From contig JAQWCF010000008.1 in assembly GCA_028706105.1 (NCBI GenBank), positions 1 to 35,000 on the forward strand: DNA of 35,000 nt, written 5' to 3'. Origin of the DNA: Candidatus Margulisiibacteriota bacterium. GTDB lineage: Bacteria > Margulisbacteria > Riflemargulisbacteria > GWF2-35-9 > DYQY01. Every line of letters begins with the position of its first letter. The first letter of the stretch is position 1. Below, piece by piece: positions 14,637 through 27,519 of this stretch. A program made the translations under genes and the position numbers. The notes beneath the pieces are model-generated. The model searched no databases and was not told the DNA's origin. It worked only from the letters and a program-made list of their open reading frames with translations.

Positions 14637-14666
14637 AAAAATACATCCTGTTGGGAAGTGGGAACG

Positions 14667-16682
14667 ATGAAGTTAAGTATTAGATATAAGGTGCCTCTGT
14701 TTTTTTCAATAACCATAATAGCTACAGCTATAATTTCTGTTTTTATAATTGCGTATATGAGCAATTACAGAATGATAGGAACTCATAAAAATTTAGTAAG
14801 AAAATTCGCTTATGAGAATGCAAGCGAAGTATTATCAAAAAATAAAAATCAGCTGGAATATAAAATGATGCTCTTGGGTAAGGAAAGCAATCATTTGAAA
14901 GCTTTCTTTTTAATAGACAATAAAAAAGAACTTGTAGCCAAATATGATCCTGGAAGCATTGTAGACCCCAGCAGTTATTTTTTGTTCTGTGATAAAGATT
15001 GTGAAAAAGATTTAGATTTTATTAAAGAGGGCAGTCAACATGTAACTATTATGAGGCTTGAGATTAGTGGAATGTTGATTGGTGTTCTTGGCGGAGTGTT
15101 TGATAAACCAAGCTTTTGGGGTTTATTAACTGAAATTGAGGATAGCGTAAAACTTTCTTTACTTGTTTTTTTTCTTGTCTCTTTTGTGTTAGTCATTTTT
15201 ATATCAGAACTGTTAAGCAAACAAATAGTTAATCCCATTATGGAGATTTCTAGATTTATTAATGAAAACAGTCATTTAAGTCCTGATTTAATGAAAAATA
15301 TCAAGATTAAGAAAAAGAAATGTTGGCTTTATAAAAAATGTAACAATCAGGAATGTGAAAGCTATAAGGATGATAATAATAATTGTTGGGATAGGTATTT
15401 CGAAAACCAGAAAAATAATGTTTCAAACCCAATGCTAGCTCCTTGTTTTGAGTGCTCTGTTTTCCTTCGAAAAGAAGATGATGAGATTGATAGATTGAAA
15501 ATATTTTTAAACCAACTTATTTCTAAAATGAGAGCTCAGTATAAACAGGGTAAACAATATAGCCAGTCACTTGAGGAGAAGGTTAATAGACGCACAGCTG
15601 AACTAAGAGAGATTACAGACGACCTAATAGCTGCAAACTTAAAAACACAGATGATTATAGAAAATGTCGCAGAGGGGATAGTTGTTGTAGATAAAAATAA
15701 TTACGTCATTCAGTTCAATCAAGAAGCAAAGAGAGACTTTTTAATAAAAGACGATAAAAATATTTTCGGTAGTAATATGGAAGATGTTTGGGAAGACAAG
15801 GTAGCCGTAAAAGAAATAGCCGCAATCGTTGCAAGAACATTTGCCTTACATAAAGGATTAGACATAGAATTAATATATGAAGTAGCAGATAAAAAAAAGC
15901 ATTTTGTGGTTAGAACAACAATTGTTACTAATGAGCATCTTGATGAAACTTTTGTTATTTTACTCATCAGGAATAACACTAACGAGAAGATAGTTGAGAA
16001 TTTTAAAAATGATTTTTTCCATATGATATCACACGATCTGAAGAACCCTTTATCCAGCGTTATTGGGTTCATTGATCTTTTATTACATGGTTCAAATAAA
16101 GATAAATTGCATGAGAAGCAGAAAAAATATTTAGAGTTTGCTAACAAAAGTGCTGGGGATCTAAAAAAGATGCTCGATGACCTTAGTACAATCATCAAGA
16201 TGCAACAGCGTAAAATAGAATTGGATAAAGAAACTTTTGTTTTAAATGATTTGTTTGTTGAAGTACAACAGTCTTTTTATCCTTTGTTTGTTCAAAATGA
16301 AACCGATTTTAAATTTAAAGTTACACCTAACGATCTTACTATCGTTGCTGACTACCAAAGAATAAAGCAAGTGCTCTCTAACCTGATTGGTAATGCAGTT
16401 AAGTCTGGAGAAAATGTTGTTGTTAAAATGGAAGCCGTCAAATTGGCTTCTGATACAATAATTGTTGTAGAAGATAATGGAGAAGGAATACCCGCAGACA
16501 AGATACCTTTATTGTTTGAACGATTTGCTCAATTATATACTTACCAAGAAGCAGACGCAGGGCTTGGCCTGGGGCTGTCTATTGTAAAAAATATAATTAA
16601 CCTACATAATGGAACTATAAGTGTTGATAGTCAGATAAACAAAGGAACAAAATTTACAATAACGCTGCCGAATAATGGTTAA
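14667..16682 (+). CDS. Membrane sensor histidine kinase with a cysteine-rich CW-type segment (kinase 1)
   Basis: 671 residues from the ATG at 14667; a GTG at 14658 is in frame. Order: TM1 (about 9-31), extracytoplasmic sensor (32-160, with a cysteine pair CDKDC at 108/112), TM2 (about 162-180), a HAMP-like linker, a Cys/Trp-rich segment with cysteines at 219, 225, 230, 240, 260 and 263 (KCWLYKKC, NCWDRY, PCFEC), coiled coil (295-325), PAS (about 325-440), HisKA with phosphoacceptor H456 (ISHDLKNP), and HATPase with N-box N576, EDNGEGIP and GLGLGLS. All kinase boxes are intact. The cysteine segment could bind a metal, Fe-S cluster or heme, or act as a redox switch. Its last 8 bases overlap kinase 2. 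No response regulator is encoded nearby. Confidence 0.93.
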   Translation: MKLSIRYKVPLFFSITIIATAIISVFIIAYMSNYRMIGTHKNLVRKFAYENASEVLSKNKNQLEYKMMLLGKESNHLKAFFLIDNKKELVAKYDPGSIVDPSSYFLFCDKDCEKDLDFIKEGSQHVTIMRLEISGMLIGVLGGVFDKPSFWGLLTEIEDSVKLSLLVFFLVSFVLVIFISELLSKQIVNPIMEISRFINENSHLSPDLMKNIKIKKKKCWLYKKCNNQECESYKDDNNNCWDRYFENQKNNVSNPMLAPCFECSVFLRKEDDEIDRLKIFLNQLISKMRAQYKQGKQYSQSLEEKVNRRTAELREITDDLIAANLKTQMIIENVAEGIVVVDKNNYVIQFNQEAKRDFLIKDDKNIFGSNMEDVWEDKVAVKEIAAIVARTFALHKGLDIELIYEVADKKKHFVVRTTIVTNEHLDETFVILLIRNNTNEKIVENFKNDFFHMISHDLKNPLSSVIGFIDLLLHGSNKDKLHEKQKKYLEFANKSAGDLKKMLDDLSTIIKMQQRKIELDKETFVLNDLFVEVQQSFYPLFVQNETDFKFKVTPNDLTIVADYQRIKQVLSNLIGNAVKSGENVVVKMEAVKLASDTIIVVEDNGEGIPADKIPLLFERFAQLYTYQEADAGLGLGLSIVKNIINLHNGTISVDSQINKGTKFTITLPNNG

Positions 16683-18555
16683 TTTATTTACATATTTATC
16701 TTTAGAAAGCATTTCATTAGGGCAACTGTACCAACAGTTCGTCATTATATTGTTTTCAGTGATCATATTGTTTTCTGCTTATATAAGCATAGTTAAGCTT
16801 CCCGCTAGCCACAACATGAAGCTTAGATTTAAAGTGGTTTTTATTAGTAATTTTATTGTTTTATTTGTTTCTTGTCTTTTTTTTATATTCCTTAGATTAG
16901 CAAAGTATAGCTACCATACTTCCGCCTTTTGGTTGCCAATATTTAGTATTGTTATTCAGCTTGGATACCTTTTAGGTCATATAATATTGCCCTTAGCGCT
17001 TATTATTCCAGAATATATTCGTGATGGAAGATTTAAAAGAGTTTTAGCTTTTTTTGTCACTATTTTTGTTTTGGTGACAGTCTTTTTAATCGCTATTGCG
17101 CTTAATCCGAGCTGGACAAAAGCTTATGTTTTGTTTATTAACAAAGGCTGGCTACTTGTAGCAATTGAGTTGTTTTTTATTATTAGCGTTGGGTTTATGC
17201 TTATTTTAAGCAAACTTAAGTCTAATATTTTTCTTTCTTTGGCCTGTACTAATTTGTTTTTTGCAAATGGGTTACACTTGATGACACTATTACAACCAAG
17301 GTATATCAAATATTTAGTTGTTTATAATTTGCTGATCATTTTAGCCAACATATTTGTGGAAATTTATATTTTCTTTGAAATAATCAAAGCTCTTCGAGTT
17401 AGCAATAACGAGGTGCAAAAGCTCAATAAAGAGTTGGAAAGCAGAATTCAAGAACGTACTCAGGATTTGTTTAATAGCAATAAGGAATTATTTCAGACTA
17501 ACTACATGCTTCATCAGGAAAAAGAGAAATTAAACGCAATAATCCGCAATATAGACGAAGGTATTATCGTGAGCAATGTAATGGGCAACATTCTGTTGGT
17601 TAATGATAGTGCCAATAGAATCTTAGGCATCAAAGATAAACAGATAGGTTCATCCATCAAAGGAATAATACAGGACAATGAATATATAAAAGACATGAAT
17701 GGGTTGGTTCTTAAAAAGGTTAGAAAGATAAGTAAAGATATTGTTGTAAATCTTGACGGTGAAGAGCGACACATTCAATACATTTCTACCCTTTCTATTG
17801 ACTCCAAAGATAATATTATTGGGATTATTACTTTGATTAGGGATGTTTCCAAAGAGATAGAAGTGGAAAGGTTAAAAACAGGATTTCTAAAAACAATCTC
17901 GCATGAATTAAAGACTCCATTAACAACGATTATTGGCTTTGCGGAAACTTTGTCTTCAGAGAGAAGAGGTCAGCTTAATAGTGATCAGAAAGATTTCGTT
18001 GATATTATAGTTAAAGAGGGCGAGCATTTGCATAGGTTAATTTCTAATCTTTTAGAGTTTACAAAAATAAGCTCTAGTAAGGCTAGCCTTATGTATGAAG
18101 AGTTTAACCTTAGATCCCTAATAACGGAAATAATGGAAAGTTTTTTGCCAATAGTCGAGTCTAAAGGAATTAAAATGAGCATTGATGAAGGAGCTATTAT
18201 CCCCTCTATTCAAGCAGATAAGTTGAAAATACAAAAGGCATTTTTAAACATTATTAAGAATGCAATTGATTATACAAACGAGGGAGAAATTACTGTCTCT
18301 TTTCATGTTGCTAAGAAAAAAATTATAACAATTATTAAGGATACAGGGGTTGGAATACCAGAAAGTGAGCAGATAAGAATATTTGATACTTTTTTTCAGT
18401 ATGACCAGAAGAAAGTTTCAGGTTATAAGAGCGGGTTAGGCTTGGGGCTTGCCTTAGCAAAGAATTTTATTCAGGTTCACGATGGGAAAATATGGGTAGA
18501 GAGCGGACAAGACAAGGGGTCAACCTTTTTTATTGAACTTCCGGTTGCTCGATAA
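16675..18555 (+). CDS. Multi-TM sensor histidine kinase with PAS domain (kinase 2)
   Basis: 626 residues, starting inside the end of kinase 1. The N-terminal 240 residues hold seven or eight transmembrane helices (from about 18 to 237) with hardly any loop, so the signal is probably membrane-embedded or hydrophobic. A coiled coil (242-290, EVQKLNKELESRIQERTQDL), PAS (about 285-392), HisKA with H410 (ISHELKTP), and HATPase with N529, DTGVGIP (556-562) and GLGLGLA (587-593) follow. Complete kinase; no receiver or output domain and no response regulator beside it. The overlap suggests kinases 1 and 2 are made together and may converge on a shared regulator elsewhere. The 3' end overlaps the convergent nadB by 26 bases. 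Confidence 0.93.
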   Translation: MVNLFTYLSLESISLGQLYQQFVIILFSVIILFSAYISIVKLPASHNMKLRFKVVFISNFIVLFVSCLFFIFLRLAKYSYHTSAFWLPIFSIVIQLGYLLGHIILPLALIIPEYIRDGRFKRVLAFFVTIFVLVTVFLIAIALNPSWTKAYVLFINKGWLLVAIELFFIISVGFMLILSKLKSNIFLSLACTNLFFANGLHLMTLLQPRYIKYLVVYNLLIILANIFVEIYIFFEIIKALRVSNNEVQKLNKELESRIQERTQDLFNSNKELFQTNYMLHQEKEKLNAIIRNIDEGIIVSNVMGNILLVNDSANRILGIKDKQIGSSIKGIIQDNEYIKDMNGLVLKKVRKISKDIVVNLDGEERHIQYISTLSIDSKDNIIGIITLIRDVSKEIEVERLKTGFLKTISHELKTPLTTIIGFAETLSSERRGQLNSDQKDFVDIIVKEGEHLHRLISNLLEFTKISSSKASLMYEEFNLRSLITEIMESFLPIVESKGIKMSIDEGAIIPSIQADKLKIQKAFLNIIKNAIDYTNEGEITVSFHVAKKKIITIIKDTGVGIPESEQIRIFDTFFQYDQKKVSGYKSGLGLGLALAKNFIQVHDGKIWVESGQDKGSTFFIELPVAR

Positions 18556-20098
18556 GAATATGTTGATGATCCAATAATGGATTGGTTTTAGGAAAATCTT
18601 CTCTATAATGAGTGCCTCTGCTTTCTTCTCTTTTTAAAGCATTTTCCGTTATAAGTTTGGCAGTAATTAACATATTTTTAGTTTCACTAAGAAGAACTAT
18701 TTCTTTGGAGGTTAAAGTAATTGCTTTATTGTACAAATCATTAAGGATATTTTTTAATTTCATTAGCTCTTGCTTGTTCCTTTTAATCCCGACTTTAGCA
18801 TACATTTCTTTTTGAATAGTTTTTTTCATGTTCAGTAGTTCGTCTTTTGTTATATTATTTGTTTTAGTTACTGCTTTGGTTTCCTCTGTATTAATTGTTA
18901 GTGGCATTGTTTTGATTTTCTTATTTATGTCTTCTGCTGCTTTGTGTCCAAAAACCATACACTCAAGTAATGAATTGCTCGCTAACCTATTCGCTCCATG
19001 AACTCCAGTTGAGGCTACTTCTCCACAAGCGTAGAGATTTGTTATCGAGGTGTGAGCCTTCGTGTCTGTTTTGATGCCACCTATCATATAATGGGCAGCA
19101 GGAATGACAGCAATTGGCTCTTTGGTTAAATCTATTCCCGCTTCGAGGCAACTAGAATAGATTACCGGAAATTTATCAGGAATATTGGGGATAGGCCGCA
19201 TATCCAGGAATACTTTTTTGTTATTTTGGAGTTGGGTGTAAATAGCTCTTGCTACAATATCTCTTGGGGCTAATTCACCTCTTTTATCATAATCAAACAG
19301 GAAGCGCTTGTTGTCTTCATTAAAAATAATTGCACCTTCTCCTCTGACAGATTCAGAAATCAAAAAATTTTTAATTTTACCTTTTTCAAGAAGAATTGCT
19401 GTTGGGTGAAATTGATAGAACTCCATGTCTCTGATCTCTGCGCCAGCAAGATAGGCAGCAGCTAGTCCGTCGCCCGTACTGCCTTCCCAATTTGTTGTTT
19501 TATCAAAAACTGCGCCAGCTCCACCTGTTGCAAGAATTGTGCACTTTGATGAGAGGTACAATTCTTTTTTTGTTTTTATGTTGATAAACTTTGCACCATA
19601 ACAATGGTTGTTTTGGACCAGTAAGTTTTGAAGGAATAAATTTTCGATGAGGGTGATGTTCGGTCTATTGAGTGCTTCGTTAGAGAGTGTTGATTGTATG
19701 CTAAAACCGGTGGTGTCTCTAACATGCATAATTCTTCTGCTACTGTGAGCAGCTTCTTTTAGAAATTCAAATTCGTTGTCGTGCGTTCGGTCAAACTTTA
19801 CACCATGGTTAATTAAATCCCAGACTCTGGTAGGCCCTTCTGTCACTAACATATTGACAGCATCTTCGTCTGAAAGTTCACAGCCGGTGAGCATTGTGTC
19901 ATTTTTGTGTACTGGAATATCGGAAGGTTCTTGTAAGGCTACAGCCACCCCTCCTTGTGCGTAAAAAGAGTTTGTGTTGTTCATTTGCCCTTTGGTGACG
20001 ATGGTTACTTGGAGAGAGCTATTTAAGTCGATTGCAGCAGTTAATCCTGCTATTCCACCTCCTATGATTAGGACATCAGTAGTTTGTGCATTTTTCAT
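18530..20098 (-). CDS. nadB: L-aspartate oxidase (NadB)
   Basis: 522 residues. An FAD enzyme that oxidises aspartate to iminoaspartate, the first step of de novo NAD synthesis. Features: dinucleotide-binding IIGGGIAGLTAAIDL near the N-terminus, ATGGAGAVFDKTTNWEGSTG, EFYQFHPTA, the RGEGA turn and GEVASTGVHGANRLASNSLL before the helical C-terminal domain. This agrees with NadB better than with the flavin subunits of succinate or fumarate reductase (there are no partner subunits, and the N-terminal active-site text is of NadB type). nadA and nadC are not in the window. I chose the ATG at 20098 over 20116 because TATAAT lies 6 bases before it. Overlaps kinase 2 tail to tail. Confidence 0.92.
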   Translation of the reverse strand: MKNAQTTDVLIIGGGIAGLTAAIDLNSSLQVTIVTKGQMNNTNSFYAQGGVAVALQEPSDIPVHKNDTMLTGCELSDEDAVNMLVTEGPTRVWDLINHGVKFDRTHDNEFEFLKEAAHSSRRIMHVRDTTGFSIQSTLSNEALNRPNITLIENLFLQNLLVQNNHCYGAKFINIKTKKELYLSSKCTILATGGAGAVFDKTTNWEGSTGDGLAAAYLAGAEIRDMEFYQFHPTAILLEKGKIKNFLISESVRGEGAIIFNEDNKRFLFDYDKRGELAPRDIVARAIYTQLQNNKKVFLDMRPIPNIPDKFPVIYSSCLEAGIDLTKEPIAVIPAAHYMIGGIKTDTKAHTSITNLYACGEVASTGVHGANRLASNSLLECMVFGHKAAEDINKKIKTMPLTINTEETKAVTKTNNITKDELLNMKKTIQKEMYAKVGIKRNKQELMKLKNILNDLYNKAITLTSKEIVLLSETKNMLITAKLITENALKREESRGTHYREDFPKTNPLLDHQHILIEQPEVQ

Positions 20099-20104
20099 AG
20101 GATT

Positions 20105-20110
20105 ATTATA
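20105..20110 (-). promoter_or_regulatory. -10 box directly before nadB (leaderless candidate)
   Basis: Minus-strand TATAAT, six bases (AATCCT), ATG. It lies in the 46 bases between the sensor stop and the nadB start, so nadB can be transcribed independently of the sensor gene. Confidence 0.55.
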
Positions 20111-20144
20111 GTCCAATTATTATTTTAAGGCGATAAATATAGTT

Positions 20145-21434
20145 TTATGAAAAATGAAAAGTGAGTATTTTTCCAACAACTTTTAGTTCTTGCATTAAAG
20201 GTGAAAAATGGATATTAACTTTTCTCCCATCTTTTAGTTCAAATAAACCAATATTGCAATTAGTATCTGTGCATTTTTTATATTTGGTTAGAAATCCCTT
20301 GCTGTTAACAATTTGGATAGAAAAATATTTAATTAATTGGTCTTCAGTATCATCATTAATTACGGTTTCAGGTAAATCCCAATCAATGCTTAACCTAGTG
20401 TTAGATTTAATGACGTCGCCATTTTGACTTAAAACTAGAACCCCATCACAGTACTCTGCTTGAAGTAGGCTATCTAAAATCCCATTATAAGCTTTGGTAG
20501 TTTTTTCTGACTTTATTCTTCTACTATACTCGTCTTTTAATAGAATATTGATTTCTTTGATTGCCTCTGATTTTTCATCTATAGTTTCAAGAAGATTTTT
20601 TTGTGTCAAAGAACATTCTTTTTCTGCTATTTTTCTTTTGTTAATTTCATTATTTAGTGTGTTTATTTGTTGTGCAGCTGTTTCTTTCATTTGCATATAA
20701 CCATTTATAAGTGGTTCAAACTCGGAGTTTTTTAACTTTGAACATTCATATAATGGTTCTGTTATATCTCCACTTTTAATTATTTCGTCTAAATCATTAA
20801 CTAATTTTTGTAGAGGTTTTGTAATTATTGAGGCGAACAATTTGATTAAACATAAACTTAAAAAGAAGGTAATAAGGGCCATGGCTATGCTAACAAAAAA
20901 GGCTTTTCTTTTTTCGTTATTGATTTTATTTTTTGTATATTCAAGTATTATGCCTCCAATAGGAGTATCATTTAGTTGGATTGGAATGTTAACGTATAAA
21001 AATTTGTTGGAAAAAAAGATAGAGGGTGTTTTTTGATGAAGTGCTTTTTGAAGTCTAGGAAAAATTAAAAGTGGTTCCTTGTCGACACTGTGAATAGTTT
21101 GTCTGTCAGTGTAAACATAAACTTCGTTTAGGTTTTGCATCCTTTTTTTTAAGGTTGTGAAGAGGATTTCCCCTTGTAAATCAAAAATTATATTGAGGTA
21201 TGTTTTTTGATCATTGATTTCTTTAATATTTTCTAGTTTATCAAGAGCTGCGATTTGAAATGGAAATATTAAATTAATTGATTCTTGTTTTAAGTTTTCT
21301 ATGAGGATGGTTTTGGAATTATAAAATAAGAACAGTCCAGCTAGAGAAGAAACAATAATTTGCATTAAAAAAGTAGTAACAATTATTTTGCTTTGTAAGG
21401 TGCTTATTAGTTTTTTTTTCTTGTTTTTATTCAT
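20145..21434 (-). CDS. Membrane HAMP-PAS sensor protein without an output domain
   Basis: 429 residues. TM1 (17-38), extracytoplasmic sensor (about 39-177), TM2 (178-200), HAMP (about 200-255, beginning ITKPLQKLVNDL), a long coiled coil (245-320) and a PAS-like domain (about 320-429, DGVLVLSQNGDVIKSN). The chain stops there: no HisKA, HATPase, GGDEF, EAL or methyl-accepting tip, and no kinase remnant in the 46 bases before nadB. Its ATG is 2 bases after the stop of the periplasmic binding-protein gene, with no strong ribosome site, so the two are coupled. The pairing resembles TorT-TorS or LuxP-LuxQ, in which a binding protein docks on a sensor kinase; here the kinase must be supplied by another protein. 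Confidence 0.8.
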   Translation of the reverse strand: MNKNKKKKLISTLQSKIIVTTFLMQIIVSSLAGLFLFYNSKTILIENLKQESINLIFPFQIAALDKLENIKEINDQKTYLNIIFDLQGEILFTTLKKRMQNLNEVYVYTDRQTIHSVDKEPLLIFPRLQKALHQKTPSIFFSNKFLYVNIPIQLNDTPIGGIILEYTKNKINNEKRKAFFVSIAMALITFFLSLCLIKLFASIITKPLQKLVNDLDEIIKSGDITEPLYECSKLKNSEFEPLINGYMQMKETAAQQINTLNNEINKRKIAEKECSLTQKNLLETIDEKSEAIKEINILLKDEYSRRIKSEKTTKAYNGILDSLLQAEYCDGVLVLSQNGDVIKSNTRLSIDWDLPETVINDDTEDQLIKYFSIQIVNSKGFLTKYKKCTDTNCNIGLFELKDGRKVNIHFSPLMQELKVVGKILTFHFS

Positions 21435-21436
21435 GA

Positions 21437-22375
21437 TTATTTTCTTGCTTTTAAAGAGTCTAAATATTGTTTATTGATTAAGATAGGCTTGATAAGAGTT
21501 TCTTTTTGATAGGAGGCTTGGGATAAAATTTGTTTTGTTATTAAAATGGTTTTTTCTGCCATTTGGTTAGAGTCTTGAGCAATCGTTCCCTCGATTCTAC
21601 CAGTTTTTATTAAACTAAGTGTTTGGGGAAGTCCATCAAAGCCTAAGAAAAAAAGATGATTACTAGATTTTAAAGTTCTATAAAAAGCTTCTGAGACAAT
21701 AATGCCTGGGTCCCAGCAACTAAAGACGGCGTTGAAGTTGGAGTCAACGGTTAGAAATTGTTTGCTGAGGTTATAGGCTTTTTCAGTTAGCCAGTCAGCA
21801 TAGACAACCTGGTATTTTATATTTTCTTGTTCACAAATTTCAGTAAATCCTTGTATTCTAAGTTGAGAATTGGGGTGTTGTTTTTCGCCTCCGAGTATTA
21901 ATACTTTTGGATTAGTGGTGTTTTTAAGTTTTTCGGCAATAAACTTACCTGCCATTCTTGCACCAAAAAGGTTGTCAGAGGTAATAAAGGCTGCAACAGC
22001 GGGATGATTAAAGTTACTATCAATTAATACTACTGGTATTTTTGCTGTTTTAAATTTATCAAGAATAGCTACTAGTTTTTTTTGATTAAATGGTGAGCCA
22101 AGCCCAAGTATTAATGCACACACTTTGTTTTCTAAGGCAAATTCCATTAACTGTGTTTGTTCTTGATCAAAGGGCAGGAAGGGGGGCGTTAAATCTATAA
22201 TGTCTATTCCGTGTAATTGGGAATAATTTTGAATTTTTTCTCCCAGTTCTTCCCAGAAAGGTTTTTCTAGAGAATAACCAATATAAATTACTTTATGAGG
22301 AATATTTTCTATGCATGCAGCATAGGTTATTACGCTTATGGCTAAGATAAAAGAAAAAATAATCTTTTTAACCAT
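21437..22375 (-). CDS. Periplasmic sugar-binding-like protein (Peripla_BP_4, TorT/LuxP-like context)
   Basis: 312 residues with a signal peptide (MVKKIIFSFILAISVITYA); the following AAC could be a weak lipobox. The mature chain is a two-lobed type I binding protein of the RbsB/LuxP class: IGYSLEKPFWEELGEKIQ, IPVVLIDSNF, TSDNLFGARMAGKFIAEKL, FNAVFSCWDPG and LGFDGLPQTLSLIKTGRIEG. No ABC transporter genes are near; the next gene is the HAMP-PAS sensor, so a sensory rather than transport role is likely. The ligand is unknown. I prefer the ATG at 22375 to 22390 because the -10 box overlaps the latter. Confidence 0.85.
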   Translation of the reverse strand: MVKKIIFSFILAISVITYAACIENIPHKVIYIGYSLEKPFWEELGEKIQNYSQLHGIDIIDLTPPFLPFDQEQTQLMEFALENKVCALILGLGSPFNQKKLVAILDKFKTAKIPVVLIDSNFNHPAVAAFITSDNLFGARMAGKFIAEKLKNTTNPKVLILGGEKQHPNSQLRIQGFTEICEQENIKYQVVYADWLTEKAYNLSKQFLTVDSNFNAVFSCWDPGIIVSEAFYRTLKSSNHLFFLGFDGLPQTLSLIKTGRIEGTIAQDSNQMAEKTILITKQILSQASYQKETLIKPILINKQYLDSLKARK

Positions 22376-22385
22376 TATGTTATAT

Positions 22386-22415
22386 ATCATAACTCTAAAG
22401 AGTCACAAATATCAA
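22386..22415 (-). promoter_or_regulatory. Promoter of the binding-protein/sensor operon
   Basis: Minus-strand TTGATA (22415-22410), 18-base spacer, TATGAT (22391-22386). It ends 10 bases before the ATG, leaving a leader of only about 3-4 bases, nearly leaderless. Confidence 0.5.
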
Positions 22416-22428
22416 AGTTAACGCAAAA

Positions 22429-25400
22429 CTATTTTTTCTTTTTAGCTTTAAAGTTTTCTACTATTGCAACAAAGCAAGGTACTACAAATAAAGTTAATAG
22501 TGAAGCTCCAAGTAATCCATATCCAAGGGACATTGCCATAGGCATTAGATATTCATCATAGCCTCCCCAACCATAAATCATCGGTATTACCCCCGCAACA
22601 GTAGTAACTGTTGTTAATATAATCGGTCGTAGTCGACTGACGGCGCCTTCGACAATGCAGTCCATGCAAGCTTCATTTGTTTTTTTACTTATTTTTTTGA
22701 TTTGGCTAACCATTACAAGCGAATCATTAACAACAACACCTGCTAGTCCTACAAACCCAACTAATGCTTGGAATGTTAAAGGTTTTCCATGTAAAGCAAA
22801 AGCAAGAATCACAGGGATTAAACTTAAGGGAATGGCTGTCATTACTAGTAACGGTTCAACTACAGAACCAAACCCAAGTATTAGAATGAAATAAATGCTT
22901 ATTATCGCAATTAGGAAGAGTTTACCGATGTCCACGAAAGAATCCATGGTTGCTTTTCCTTCACCTTTGAATTCAAAGGTCACACTTGGATATTTTTCAG
23001 CGAGGGTAGTGTCGGTGAATTTTTTCACTGTTGTCATAACTTCTAATGGAGTTGTTTTCCCTTTAATTGTATCTCCTTGAATTTTGATTGATCCTAATCT
23101 GTCATAACGAGCTATGCTTGGAACACTGTTTTGAGGTATTAGCGTTGCAAAGTTTTTAATACGGATTAGCTTGCCTTCTCTGTTTGGAACAGGCAAATCT
23201 AGCAGGTCGTTGCTGTCTTTTCTAAACTCTGGTGCTAGTTTAACGATAAGGTTTACATCATCATTGCCTTCTCTAATCGAGGTGATTGTTGTGCCAGAAA
23301 AAGCAGTTCTTAGGGTTGAGGCAACGCTGTAAATATCTAAGACTAACATACTTATTTTTGCATTATCTATGTTTAGTCTTAGTTCTTCCTTGCCGTCTTC
23401 GACATCGTCTTCTATTTCTGTTGTTCCATCAATATTTTTTATAAACAATAAGAGTTCGTTAGCAGCTAAATTCCTTTGCTCTTTATCGTTTGCTAGGAGC
23501 TGAATAGAGATAGGTTTTCCCGATTGGGGTCCACGGGATTGTGTTTCTATAATGACTTTTTCAAATCCTCCGATGTATGGTTTGATGTCTTTTTGTAATT
23601 GAACTATTATTTCTTGTGCTGTTCTATTTCTTTGGTTCAAAGGTGTTAAATAAACGTATAAAATTGCACGATGTGGGTCTGTTCCAAGATTAGACCAATA
23701 AATAGAGGAGTCATAACCAACTCTTCCAGAGGAAGAGTCCAGTTCTTGTTGAGGCAGAGAGGCAATTATTTTTTCAATAGGATTAACCATTTCTAGTGTT
23801 TTTTCTAAAGGAGTTCCAATCGGTGCTTGGAATCTAACTGTGAATTCGGTGGCTCCATTTTTCTCTGCGAAATAAAACGGAATGTATGTTTTGGCGTACC
23901 AGATAGATCCAACAAACATTAAAAAGATGAGGAAGAGGAATTTATATTTATTATCAAGAACTTTGATTAATAATTTTCTATAAACTTTTTCTAAGAAAAT
24001 CATGAATTTCTTCTTGCTGACAATTTTTTCTTGTTTATTTTCGTTATCACTAAGATAACTTGGGAGAACAAATAAAGATTCAAATAAGGATGCTGATAGC
24101 ACTAGAATCACCACCGCTGGTATTGCGTAAATAAATTTACCCATGATTCCTGGCAAGAAAATAAGCGGAAGAAAGGCAACAATAGTTGTAATTGTAGAAA
24201 AACTAACAGGAAAGGCAATATCATAGACAGCGTCCACCATGTCTTTTATCGTTTTCTTGCCTTCTTCTTTAGCTTTGTGGATATTCTCAGCAACTATAAT
24301 GGCATCATCAACCAACATTCCTAGAACAAGAATTAATCCTCCTAGGCTAAGCGCATTGATGGTGAGACCAACTTTTTTGAAAAACAGAAAAGCTAGTAAA
24401 AAGGAGAAGGGGATACCAAAAGATGTCCAAACTGCAGTTTTGAAATCTAGGAATATCCAAAGCAAAGCAAAGACCATAACCATCCCCATTAAGCCGTTGG
24501 AGATAACCATTTGAAGTCTATTTTTTGTATATTGAGACATGTCGTTACTAAGTGAATAGGAAGTTCCTTCTTCCCAATTTGTTTCGTCTAAAACCTTTTT
24601 TATTCTTTTGATAGTTTTGAGAATATCCGCACTTTCTTTTTTGTGGATACATAAAGCAATAGAGTCATTGTTGTTGCTTCGCACATATAAATCTTGCTTT
24701 TTGTAATCCTTAACAACATTGGCAACATCTTTTATTTTTAAGTTATTACCAGAAAAATTTGACCTAATAATAATGTTTTTTATATCATTAGTAGTTTTTA
24801 GTTCTTTTACCGTGATGACACTTTTTTCTTTAGGTTTAGTTTCTAATGTTCCTCCAGAAAGTCTTACATTGTTTGCGTTGATTACGCCTAATAGTTCAGT
24901 TATTGATGTTTCTGTTGATTTTAGTTTAGTAGGATCCACCTCAACCCTTAATTCCTTGTCCCTGTATCCAACTTTGCTGATTTTGCTTACACCAGGCGTT
25001 CTTTTTAGTTTAAGCTCTAGCTTATCTGCCATTTTGCGCAGTACGTCTTCGTTATCGCCTTGTAGGTTTATTTCAATAATAGGGAACATACTAGTTTTGA
25101 TTTCTAAAATACTTGGGCGCTTGAGGATATCTTTTGGTAGATCACTAACTCTGTCTACTGTTTTCTCTATGTCTCTTTTAACATCATAAGCATCTCGTTC
25201 ACTTATATTGCTGTCTATGGCCACAATGACTTGAGAAAGACCTTCTTGGCTAATGGAGGAAATGCTTTCTATGCCCTCTATTTCTTCCAGTGCATCTTCA
25301 ATTATCATTGTGACATTAAGTTCGACGTCAGATGGGGCTGAGCCTGGATAGATAGTTGTTATGACAAGTTGGTTAATGTCTATATTGGGGATGCCTTCTT

Positions 25401-25503
25401 TTTGGATAGTAAAAACAGTGAGTAATCCAGCTAAAAAAATGATGATAACTAATAAGTGTACAAGTAGTTTTCTTTGTAGAAAAAAGTCTATAAGGTATTT
25501 CAT
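22429..25503 (-). CDS. RND-family efflux pump, inner-membrane transporter (AcrB/HAE-1 type)
   Basis: 1024 residues, the full size for a hydrophobe/amphiphile RND pump. Twelve transmembrane helices with two large periplasmic loops; an N-terminal FFLQRKLLVHLLVII helix, then NIDINQLVITTIYPGSAP, and the proton-relay pair D399-D400 in LGMLVDDAIIVAEN (AcrB D407/D408). The second half repeats the fold (FVGLAGVVVNDSLVM, then RLRPIILTTVTTVAG). It should export drugs, bile-like or lipid compounds using the proton gradient. The start has GGGAG 6 bases upstream and lies 2 bases after the TolC-like stop. An operon of this type normally encodes a membrane-fusion protein too; none is present. Substrate unknown. 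Confidence 0.94.
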   Translation of the reverse strand: MKYLIDFFLQRKLLVHLLVIIIFLAGLLTVFTIQKEGIPNIDINQLVITTIYPGSAPSDVELNVTMIIEDALEEIEGIESISSISQEGLSQVIVAIDSNISERDAYDVKRDIEKTVDRVSDLPKDILKRPSILEIKTSMFPIIEINLQGDNEDVLRKMADKLELKLKRTPGVSKISKVGYRDKELRVEVDPTKLKSTETSITELLGVINANNVRLSGGTLETKPKEKSVITVKELKTTNDIKNIIIRSNFSGNNLKIKDVANVVKDYKKQDLYVRSNNNDSIALCIHKKESADILKTIKRIKKVLDETNWEEGTSYSLSNDMSQYTKNRLQMVISNGLMGMVMVFALLWIFLDFKTAVWTSFGIPFSFLLAFLFFKKVGLTINALSLGGLILVLGMLVDDAIIVAENIHKAKEEGKKTIKDMVDAVYDIAFPVSFSTITTIVAFLPLIFLPGIMGKFIYAIPAVVILVLSASLFESLFVLPSYLSDNENKQEKIVSKKKFMIFLEKVYRKLLIKVLDNKYKFLFLIFLMFVGSIWYAKTYIPFYFAEKNGATEFTVRFQAPIGTPLEKTLEMVNPIEKIIASLPQQELDSSSGRVGYDSSIYWSNLGTDPHRAILYVYLTPLNQRNRTAQEIIVQLQKDIKPYIGGFEKVIIETQSRGPQSGKPISIQLLANDKEQRNLAANELLLFIKNIDGTTEIEDDVEDGKEELRLNIDNAKISMLVLDIYSVASTLRTAFSGTTITSIREGNDDVNLIVKLAPEFRKDSNDLLDLPVPNREGKLIRIKNFATLIPQNSVPSIARYDRLGSIKIQGDTIKGKTTPLEVMTTVKKFTDTTLAEKYPSVTFEFKGEGKATMDSFVDIGKLFLIAIISIYFILILGFGSVVEPLLVMTAIPLSLIPVILAFALHGKPLTFQALVGFVGLAGVVVNDSLVMVSQIKKISKKTNEACMDCIVEGAVSRLRPIILTTVTTVAGVIPMIYGWGGYDEYLMPMAMSLGYGLLGASLLTLFVVPCFVAIVENFKAKKKK

Positions 25504-25505
25504 GT

Positions 25506-26936
25506 TTAGCTCCCTATCAATTTATTTATTTTATCTAATAAGCTGTCATTAATGCTTGCTATTGATGCCTTGAGCTTAGCAATTGCGATGATTTTGTTTA
25601 GATGATCTATTTTGCTTTGAGTATATTTTTGTCTAAAATCAGATAAGCTATAGAGGGCTGTTTTCCCTTGAGAAAATCTTTTTGTTTCAATCTCCAGAAT
25701 AGCTTTGGAGTTTTCTGCGATTTGATTAGCATTTTTTTCTATCTTTTGCAGGTTAGCTAGGTTTAACAGATTATTATTGTACTGAGTCTTTAAGGCTTTT
25801 TCTATTTTAAGAATTTCTTGCTTTGTAGATTCTATATTAGATAAAATAACTTTTGTTTGGCCATCGGTGCTATTAGTGCCAAGTGAGGTTGAAAATATTG
25901 CACCTGCAGTATATTCAGACTTAGTTAAGTCAAAGAATGATTCTTGAGAGCTATCAGTGTTTTTGTAGCGGGCAATTTCGCCATAGATAGATAAATCTGG
26001 CATGGTTTCTCTATTTATTTTTTCTAAGTCCAGCTCGTATTGAGCAAGTGTTTTTTCGAAAGTAGAAATTATTCTTAGTTTGGGAAGTGTTTTCATTGGT
26101 TCTTCTTGGCAAAAACTTTCGCATATTTCAGGACGCTTTGGAAGGTTTTCCCATTTCATTTCAGCCACAAAATTGTCACCCATTTTTTGATAGATTGTTG
26201 AGGCTAGGGCGTTCCATGCGTAGAGCGTGTCATTCAGCGCATTGCGATAAATAAGTACGGCATTTTCTGCTTGAAGTAAGTCTGTTTTTAATGCTGCATC
26301 ATTGCGATATTTTTCTTTCACTTCTTCGTGTAGGTTGGTTGCATTTTTATAACTTATATTTAAAGGTTCCAAGGCAAGAGTTAGTGAGAGCCAATCATAG
26401 TATAAATTGAGAGAATCAAGGAAATATTTTTCTTCTGCTTCTTTGATGGATAGTTCAATTATTTCTTTTTGGATGTTTAATCTTTTAAGTGGCATGTTGC
26501 TGTAGACGCCCATATTATCTTTTAAAAGAGGTTGAGTTGCCCTAAGGGTTAAGGAAGGATTGATTTGAGAAAGATTCCTAGTAGACATTTTGGAGCTATT
26601 ATCAACTCTAACATACGTTAGACTGAGATTGGTCCCAGTGTCTTCTAGTTTTTTTGTAACTCCTAAACTGCCAACTATCGTATTAATGTTTTCTAGTTTA
26701 GATGGAACAGAAGGCTGTTCTTCTTGGTTAGTATATTGAAGCGAAGCTGATAGTCTTGGGTCGTACATAGCTTGCAATGATTGTAGCGAACCTTCAATGC
26801 TTTGTGCATTAAGAAAGAGTTGCATGTAGGCAGGGTCATTTTGGGTTATTTTTAGCAAATAATCTTTGAGTGATAGGTCAGACGAGAAGGTAAAACATCC
26901 GAGAAGTAGTAGTGTTGTGATTTTGATTTTATTCAT
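25506..26936 (-). CDS. TolC-family outer-membrane efflux channel
   Basis: 476 residues from the ATG at 26936, with a signal peptide (MNKIKITTLLLLGCFTFSS). The rest is helical with heptad-like repeats and two internally related halves, as in TolC: ALESLY-type strands around PSLTLRATQPLL and EYTAGAIFSTSLG, and long helices such as ALKTDLLQAENAVLIYRNAL and RFSQGKTALYSLSDFRQ. It should trimerise as the exit duct for the RND pump encoded next to it. The 26966 start is not used, since GGAG sits 6 bases before 26936 and the start overlaps the tetR stop. Operon order tetR-tolC-acrB. Confidence 0.9.
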   Translation of the reverse strand: MNKIKITTLLLLGCFTFSSDLSLKDYLLKITQNDPAYMQLFLNAQSIEGSLQSLQAMYDPRLSASLQYTNQEEQPSVPSKLENINTIVGSLGVTKKLEDTGTNLSLTYVRVDNSSKMSTRNLSQINPSLTLRATQPLLKDNMGVYSNMPLKRLNIQKEIIELSIKEAEEKYFLDSLNLYYDWLSLTLALEPLNISYKNATNLHEEVKEKYRNDAALKTDLLQAENAVLIYRNALNDTLYAWNALASTIYQKMGDNFVAEMKWENLPKRPEICESFCQEEPMKTLPKLRIISTFEKTLAQYELDLEKINRETMPDLSIYGEIARYKNTDSSQESFFDLTKSEYTAGAIFSTSLGTNSTDGQTKVILSNIESTKQEILKIEKALKTQYNNNLLNLANLQKIEKNANQIAENSKAILEIETKRFSQGKTALYSLSDFRQKYTQSKIDHLNKIIAIAKLKASIASINDSLLDKINKLIGS

Positions 26937-27519
26937 TAATTTTCTCCTTTGGTGGTAATGATCCATATAAAAAAATATTTATTGTTTCTATTAGTTCTTC
27001 TTCTAATGGTTGTTTTCCTAAGATATAAGATTTTATAAATAAGTAGGAAAAAACAGACATAAAAAAGCTCAAGAGCAGGGATTTAGGGTTTGTTTTTTTG
27101 ATTTTACCCTCATCAATAAAACTTTGGATTTTATCAAGCAGCGTGGTTGAGTTGTTTTTGATTCTTTCAGTGAGCAATAGTTGAAAATAATTTCCTTTAA
27201 ATTCTAAAAAATCAATCATGCGTAGTTTCATCGTATCTATATCAAAGGCCGACAGAAAGGTTATCGAAAGTTTTTTGAACAATATTTCTGGTTCACTTTC
27301 TTCTTTAAGCATAAGGCTTAATTCTTCGAAAAAAACATCAAAAGGGATTGCTTGATTCAATACTTCTTTGAATAAATCTTCCTTACTTATGAAACAGGAA
27401 TAAATCCCGCCTTGTGAAACGCCGCAAGTATTTGTAATGTCGCGCATGCTTGTTCCGTGGAATCCTCTGTCTAGAAATCTTTTTTTAGCTGCAATCAGAA
27501 TAGTTTCTTTAGTTCCCAT
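26929..27519 (-). CDS. TetR-family transcriptional repressor of the efflux operon
   Basis: 196 residues. The N-terminal helix-turn-helix is clear (FLDRGFHGTSMRDITNTCG then VSQGGIYSCFISKEDLF, residues about 15-50). The C-terminal domain (about 60-196) is helical and would bind an effector, probably a pump substrate. The ATG has GGAG 6 bases upstream. It is the first gene of its operon with tolC (8-base overlap) and acrB, so it probably represses itself and the pump. A GAGCG-TT-CGCTC palindrome lies 14 bases before the start. Confidence 0.93.
   Translation of the reverse strand: MGTKETILIAAKKRFLDRGFHGTSMRDITNTCGVSQGGIYSCFISKEDLFKEVLNQAIPFDVFFEELSLMLKEESEPEILFKKLSITFLSAFDIDTMKLRMIDFLEFKGNYFQLLLTERIKNNSTTLLDKIQSFIDEGKIKKTNPKSLLLSFFMSVFSYLFIKSYILGKQPLEEELIETINIFLYGSLPPKEKINE

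Follow-up and report, generated by a model that had tools for sequence, protein, structure and literature searches.

The window analyzed here, a stretch of 35,000 nucleotides from contig C8 of genome G000 (1.93 Mb in 147 contigs, 99.7% complete), encodes a solute-binding protein (SBP) and, 2 bases further on, a membrane sensor that ends without a kinase; both open reading frames and the 2-base gap given in the initial annotation were confirmed. The same two genes occur in a second species of the genus (G001), where stop and start overlap by 4 bases and the products share 51–54% identity with those of the window. Five genomes of the sister family (G002–G006) served for comparison, while the wider survey for relatives of the sensor covered 383 genomes. 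The nearest named matches of the neighboring NadB protein come from Margulisbacteria/Marinamargulisbacteria MAGs, with 50–53% protein identity.

The pair belongs to a same-strand run of TetR, outer-membrane efflux protein (OEP), RND pump, SBP, sensor and nadB genes, in which neighboring genes lie no more than 38 bases apart or overlap slightly, and it forms the putative tail of a TetR-OEP-RND efflux-pump operon (Table 1). The gene order in G001 is kinase 1, kinase 2, (convergent) nadB, sensor, SBP, RND, OEP and TetR. A promoter shared by the two genes, as originally suggested, finds no confirmation, the promoter/terminator scan performing at chance level (28 promoters found versus 29.4 expected), and a longer operon fits better. 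Equally, the statement that transporter genes are missing has to be corrected, because a TetR-OEP-RND set is encoded immediately upstream in the same orientation, and only the sugar-ABC permease BPD_transp_2 is absent. A membrane-fusion protein to go with the TetR-OEP-RND set (22429–27519) was not seen in the window ORFs that were scanned.

Table 1. Coordinates of the genes and domains at the locus (window positions)
Feature	Coordinates	Strand	Evidence and remarks
Kinase 1 (TM-sensor-TM, Cys-rich insert, PAS, HisKA, HATPase)	14658..16682	+	Pfam; candidate partner
Kinase 2 (~6–7 TM, PAS, HisKA, HATPase)	16675..18555	+	Pfam, hydropathy; candidate partner
nadB	18530..20116	-	PF00890, PF02910; 81% identity in G001; begins 28 bases past the sensor
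Kinase-less membrane sensor, 429 aa	20145..21434	-	ORF; equal end in G001
Sensor PAS, PAS_7 type, residues 330–428 (protein end)	20151..20447	-	AF2, PF12860, NF045595
Sensor signaling-helix coiled coil, residues 256–325	20460..20669	-	Best conserved segment, 63% identity
Sensor HAMP, divergent, residues 202–254	20673..20831	-	hhalign and weak NCBIfam HK matches
Sensor transmembrane helix 2, residues 179–197	20844..20900	-	Hydropathy
Sensor periplasmic domain, PAS/Cache-like, ~residues 39–175	20910..21320	-	AF2 and Foldseek
Sensor transmembrane helix 1, residues 17–35	21330..21386	-	Hydropathy
SBP, Peripla_BP_4, 317 aa, XylFII/RbsB-like	21437..22390	-	Pfam PF13407, E = 5.3e-35
RND (AcrB-family) efflux pump, upstream of SBP, putative operon	22429..25503	-	PF00873, E = 1.2e-178; synteny in G001
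Outer-membrane efflux protein (OEP), same operon	25506..26966	-	PF02321, E = 1.1e-16; synteny in G001
TetR-family regulator, operon head	26929..27519	-	PF00440, E = 1.1e-13; synteny in G001

Regarding the sensor, Pfam gave no significant domain, with neither HAMP nor PAS above threshold and no MCP signaling domain (PF00015); the HAMP and PAS assignments were therefore based on profile and structure evidence. The domain order is a transmembrane (TM) helix, a periplasmic PAS/Cache-like domain, a second TM helix, HAMP, a signaling coil and PAS, and both TM helices are found at equal positions in the G001 relative. In the periplasmic domain, the AF2 model places beta strands at residues 102–167 with moderate confidence, and Foldseek matched the domain with the extracellular domain of WalK (4ywz), with a TM-score of 0.61 by target. 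As for the HAMP, hhalign aligned 49 of 49 columns (P = 6.4e-5, probability 36%) with a profile built from the kinases and other receptors of the fetched loci; a plain HMMER profile scored the sensor above 1000 shuffles by a narrow margin, and weak NCBIfam histidine kinase matches cover TM2/HAMP (E of 9e-5 and 1.5e-4). The C-terminal PAS has a confident AF2 model (pLDDT ~75–89), and its sequence relatives map onto PAS_7 (PF12860), coming to within ~10 residues of the end of that domain; the coil-PAS half matches the sensor kinase family NF045595 with an E of 4.5e-7 (3.7e-13 for the relative), a match that, like all those of the sensor in NCBIfam, falls under the curated cut-off.

The AF2 model of the whole sensor, built from a two-sequence alignment, has a mean pLDDT of 60, with coil and HAMP poorly modeled; its top Foldseek match was the WalK model 9a5d, followed by many PAS structures and by the WalK extracellular domain. 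Within the 383 genomes, full-length relatives are confined to the two species of this genus. In the remaining genomes, the matches of the PAS part are PAS_7 domains, of which several belong to longer kinases, and those of the middle part are TM2-HAMP regions of kinases and of one MCP. Because the profiles, the AF2 model, the Foldseek matches and those of the relatives all lead to it, the sensor is best regarded as a histidine kinase input half ending at the PAS domain. The layout given in the initial annotation is thus supported by hydropathy, hhalign, AF2 and NF045595.

The absence of the kinase is genuine. HisKA and HATPase_c are found neither in the sensor nor downstream of it, as determined with Pfam and with a profile of four kinase cores, and the six-frame scan of positions 18556–22500 with this profile, which strongly recovered kinases 1 and 2, returned noise only; the earlier statement that the sensor has neither kinase nor chemotaxis output, and that no remnant precedes nadB, agrees with these data. 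The sensor ends roughly where the PAS fold does, just ahead of nadB, and the G001 protein (431 aa, 51% identity) terminates at the equivalent place, again after the PAS and with no output domain. A frameshift or an assembly error is excluded because an independent genome has equal gene order and ending, and because the six frames hold no kinase signal.

Synonymous change in the sensor gene is near or at saturation, and dN is between 0.33 and 0.42 per domain, being ~0.36 in HAMP and PAS and lowest, 0.33, in the coil. Such values imply purifying selection on all parts of the sensor, the cytoplasmic ones included, which argues against decay and indicates continued use of the cytoplasmic half. The SBP and the sensor evolve at an equal pace (dN of 0.36 and 0.37), and their neighbors are slower (0.13–0.22). 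The genomes searched contain no more than two full-length sensors, so the conservation described here is that of one species pair.

As for the SBP, residues 10–28 form a signal peptide-like helix; the ATG at 22375 is internal, and a start at 22390 agrees better with that of the relative. Its best solved relatives by sequence are the XylFII structures (5xsj, 5xss, 5xsd), followed by ribose- and glucose/galactose-type proteins; the E value for 5xsj is 1.8e-21 with the single sequence and 3.2e-24 with a two-species profile. Foldseek also ranked XylFII (5xsd) first, a result taken only as support for the sequence search because confidence in the SBP model is modest (mean pLDDT of 55, two-sequence alignment). 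The label TorT/LuxP-like is correct at the superfamily level but goes too far beyond it: XylFII is the nearest protein in both sequence and fold, and the score against RbsB (77 bits) is well above that against the TorT equivalog TIGR02955 (25.1 bits, and 34.2 for the relative, with a cut-off of 310 bits). A LuxP/AI-2 identity was dropped, because the genome has no LuxS (PF02664), whose presence would be supportive of AI-2 signaling though not strictly required, and uses SAH hydrolase instead.

In the HMMER alignment with RbsB, D124, R178, D252 and Q272 match the acidic, arginine and glutamine residues that contact ribose, and aromatic positions of the site differ (W46, W200 and W226 in the SBP). 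From its sequence, we infer a sugar-like ligand for the SBP, which as a query matches itself alone within G000. BPD_transp_2, the usual partner of this SBP family, is absent genome-wide (the control search was positive in 12 of 14 genomes), so that a role in uptake is unlikely and ABC import by the SBP was discarded.

The interpretation that we favor, and to which we assign an even chance, is that of a two-protein receptor cassette, in which the SBP is the co-receptor and the sensor is the input half of a histidine kinase that signals in trans; the signal of the pair probably passes to a separately encoded protein. This interpretation relies on several lines of evidence: the two genes are adjacent or overlapping in two species, the SBP is nearest to XylFII and has no permease; the sensor resembles the input half of WalK-type and other histidine kinases, with its cytoplasmic half under selection; SBP and sensor evolve at an equal rate, and the GlnH-GlnX-PknG system provides a precedent. 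The SBP would bind a sugar-like ligand in the periplasm, and its ligand-dependent form would dock on the PAS/Cache-like domain of the sensor, a contact that we infer from gene order and precedent; the change would then be relayed through TM2 and HAMP into coil and PAS, which would touch a separately encoded partner directly and thereby control it. This partner would most likely be a histidine kinase, either with its own coil-PAS or consisting of the kinase core only, and yet the output target may be of another kind. More tentatively, with chances that we place somewhat short of even, the SBP receptor would have lost its kinase and would address a histidine kinase in trans via HAMP-coil-PAS, with one receptor possibly feeding several kinases.

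The initial annotation proposed a hand-off to kinases 1 and 2, located 1.6 kb from the sensor on the opposite strand. The term orphan used for them is fair, since no response regulator is encoded on the contig of the window, and both have a coil-PAS ahead of the kinase core; they are also the closest kinases and are found in the same neighborhood in both species, so that the sensor could be conceived as a dedicated input for one or both. The sister family makes this unlikely: relatives of kinase 1 are present in five of its five genomes, with or without kinase 2, whereas the SBP and the full-length sensor are found in none (0/5). Relatives of kinase 2 adjoin kinase 1 in G002, G005 and G006 (in G003 and G004, the contigs end inside kinase 1), and the pattern of the window recurs in G002 and G005, where the 3' ends of kinase 2 and nadB overlap tail to tail with nothing between. 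Kinases 1 and 2 also evolve more slowly than the sensor, and their opposite orientation speaks further against a dedicated role. Gene order across these genomes indicates that the adjacency of kinases and nadB predates the SBP-sensor pair or at least does not depend on it. Proximity therefore no longer argues for a partnership, and kinases 1 and 2 are possible, not dedicated, partners of the sensor. Kinase 1 has a conserved Cys-rich insert after TM2 (residues ~219–270, KCWxxKKCxNxECxxYKDxxxNCWDR ... PCFxCxVFL, no Pfam match), which is a possible metal site.

As for other candidates, the signaling set of G000 comprises 15 receiver domains, ~ten sensor kinases and one CheA-like protein. One of its genes encodes a bare kinase core of 227 aa (HisKA and HATPase, with neither sensor nor TM), located on contig C19 (L181:7834-8517) in an apparent operon with a gene for a PfkB-family sugar kinase. 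This core, attractive as a partner, is conserved through the order, with homologues of similar size in five of five sister-family genomes that have no pair, and it was rejected as a specific detached kinase half; its presence throughout the order means that co-occurrence neither supports nor excludes it. In the comparison of kinase 1, kinase 2 and the bare core, to which this analysis was limited among the kinases of the genome, none shared the distribution of the pair. Three further PAS proteins with no kinase are encoded in the same phylum (G056, L221:501-1838 and 1835-2836; G035, L222:4818-5726), two of them containing the PAS_7 type and one having a 7TM region. All three end in a coil with the conserved tail ExKMIxxEKExNxLLxxLGxxxKY, a possible docking peptide for a partner that they share. 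They likewise stop with no kinase, but their tail is absent from the sensor and no SBP was seen adjoining them.

A second alternative is that the sensor acts as a negative adaptor: by means of HAMP, coil or PAS it would pair with a full-length kinase into mixed dimers and dampen that kinase, with the SBP ligand tuning the effect. In principle, a truncated dimerizing receptor is capable of such dampening, and the conservation of coil and PAS is in line with it; however, no full-length paralogous kinase with the input domain of the sensor exists in G000, where the sensor matches itself only, so that the partner for a mixed dimer is not obvious and we consider this role improbable. Of the decoy or adaptor form put forward initially, the modulating adaptor is an alternative of low probability; an inert decoy is disfavored by the purifying selection that acts on HAMP, coil and PAS alike.

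The operon suggests a third alternative, in which the pair serves the RND pump by reporting a periplasmic substrate of the pump and acting on the pump or on TetR. The TetR-OEP-RND-SBP-sensor order, kept on one strand with gaps of at most 38 bases in the window and conserved in both species, is what would be expected in this case. However, the sister-family genome G006 (L208) groups a PadR-type regulator with OEP and RND and has neither SBP nor sensor, meaning that the pump does not need the pair; furthermore, the ligands of Peripla_BP_4-type SBPs are sugars and related small molecules, not typical efflux substrates, and a service to the pump has a low probability. Finally, a degenerate SBP-kinase remnant that has lost its function would explain the missing kinase part, but it is highly improbable in view of the clean end common to two species at 51% identity, the purifying selection on every sensor domain and the negative six-frame scan.

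Returning to the cassette signaling in trans, its relevance is that SBP-activated receptors are usually recognized by their kinase, cyclase or chemotaxis output, and a conserved receptor that ends at PAS would be missed; such a receptor implies that sensing and output are linked in trans. Should a partner kinase come to light, HAMP-coil-PAS would represent an input module that is portable, and the pair would be an example of the splitting of a two-component receptor. The case also warns against taking the nearest kinase for the partner of a sensor, given that, as the comparison with relatives shows, the nearest kinases here adjoin nadB with or without the sensor.

Regarding known systems, SBPs stimulate chemoreceptors, sensor kinases, cyclic-di-GMP enzymes and Ser/Thr kinases (PMC9602780). 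The initial view that known pairs of this type have a complete kinase is too strong, because in GlnH-GlnX-PknG an SBP and a kinase-less membrane protein, GlnX, control the separate kinase PknG (PMC9769921). This system of Corynebacterium and mycobacteria resembles the pair in that the SBP adjoins a kinase-less membrane protein, but GlnH is of the SBP_bac_3 family and not Peripla_BP_4, GlnX differs from the sensor by having four TM helices, helical bundles and no HAMP, and the gene for the Ser/Thr kinase PknG lies in the GlnH-GlnX operon, whereas the run in the window has no kinase. In Synechocystis, the histidine kinase Hik36-Hik43, a CheA homologue, is split over two genes (PMC7656254).

XylFII-LytS, which senses D-xylose in Clostridium beijerinckii, includes the nearest solved relative of the SBP: XylFII is a signaling SBP that docks on a membrane receptor, and some of its structures show it in complex with the sensor kinase LytS. 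LytS, however, combines a four-helix-bundle input with all the parts of a histidine kinase, whereas the sensor has a beta-strand PAS/Cache-like input and no kinase. TorT-TorS and LuxP-LuxQ share with the pair the SBP superfamily and the logic of an SBP addressing a membrane receptor, but TorS and LuxQ are full sensor kinases, and the LuxQ-type kinase and receiver are absent from the sensor. WalK-type kinases have the same order of TM, extracellular PAS/Cache, TM, HAMP, coil and PAS, followed by HisKA and HATPase, of which the sensor has neither. The combination of an SBP with a TM-HAMP-coil-PAS receptor devoid of output was not described in the literature covered by a limited search, which is weak evidence of absence. 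The division of labor proposed here would be similar to that of MCP/CheA or GlnX/PknG, assembled in this case from ordinary two-component parts.
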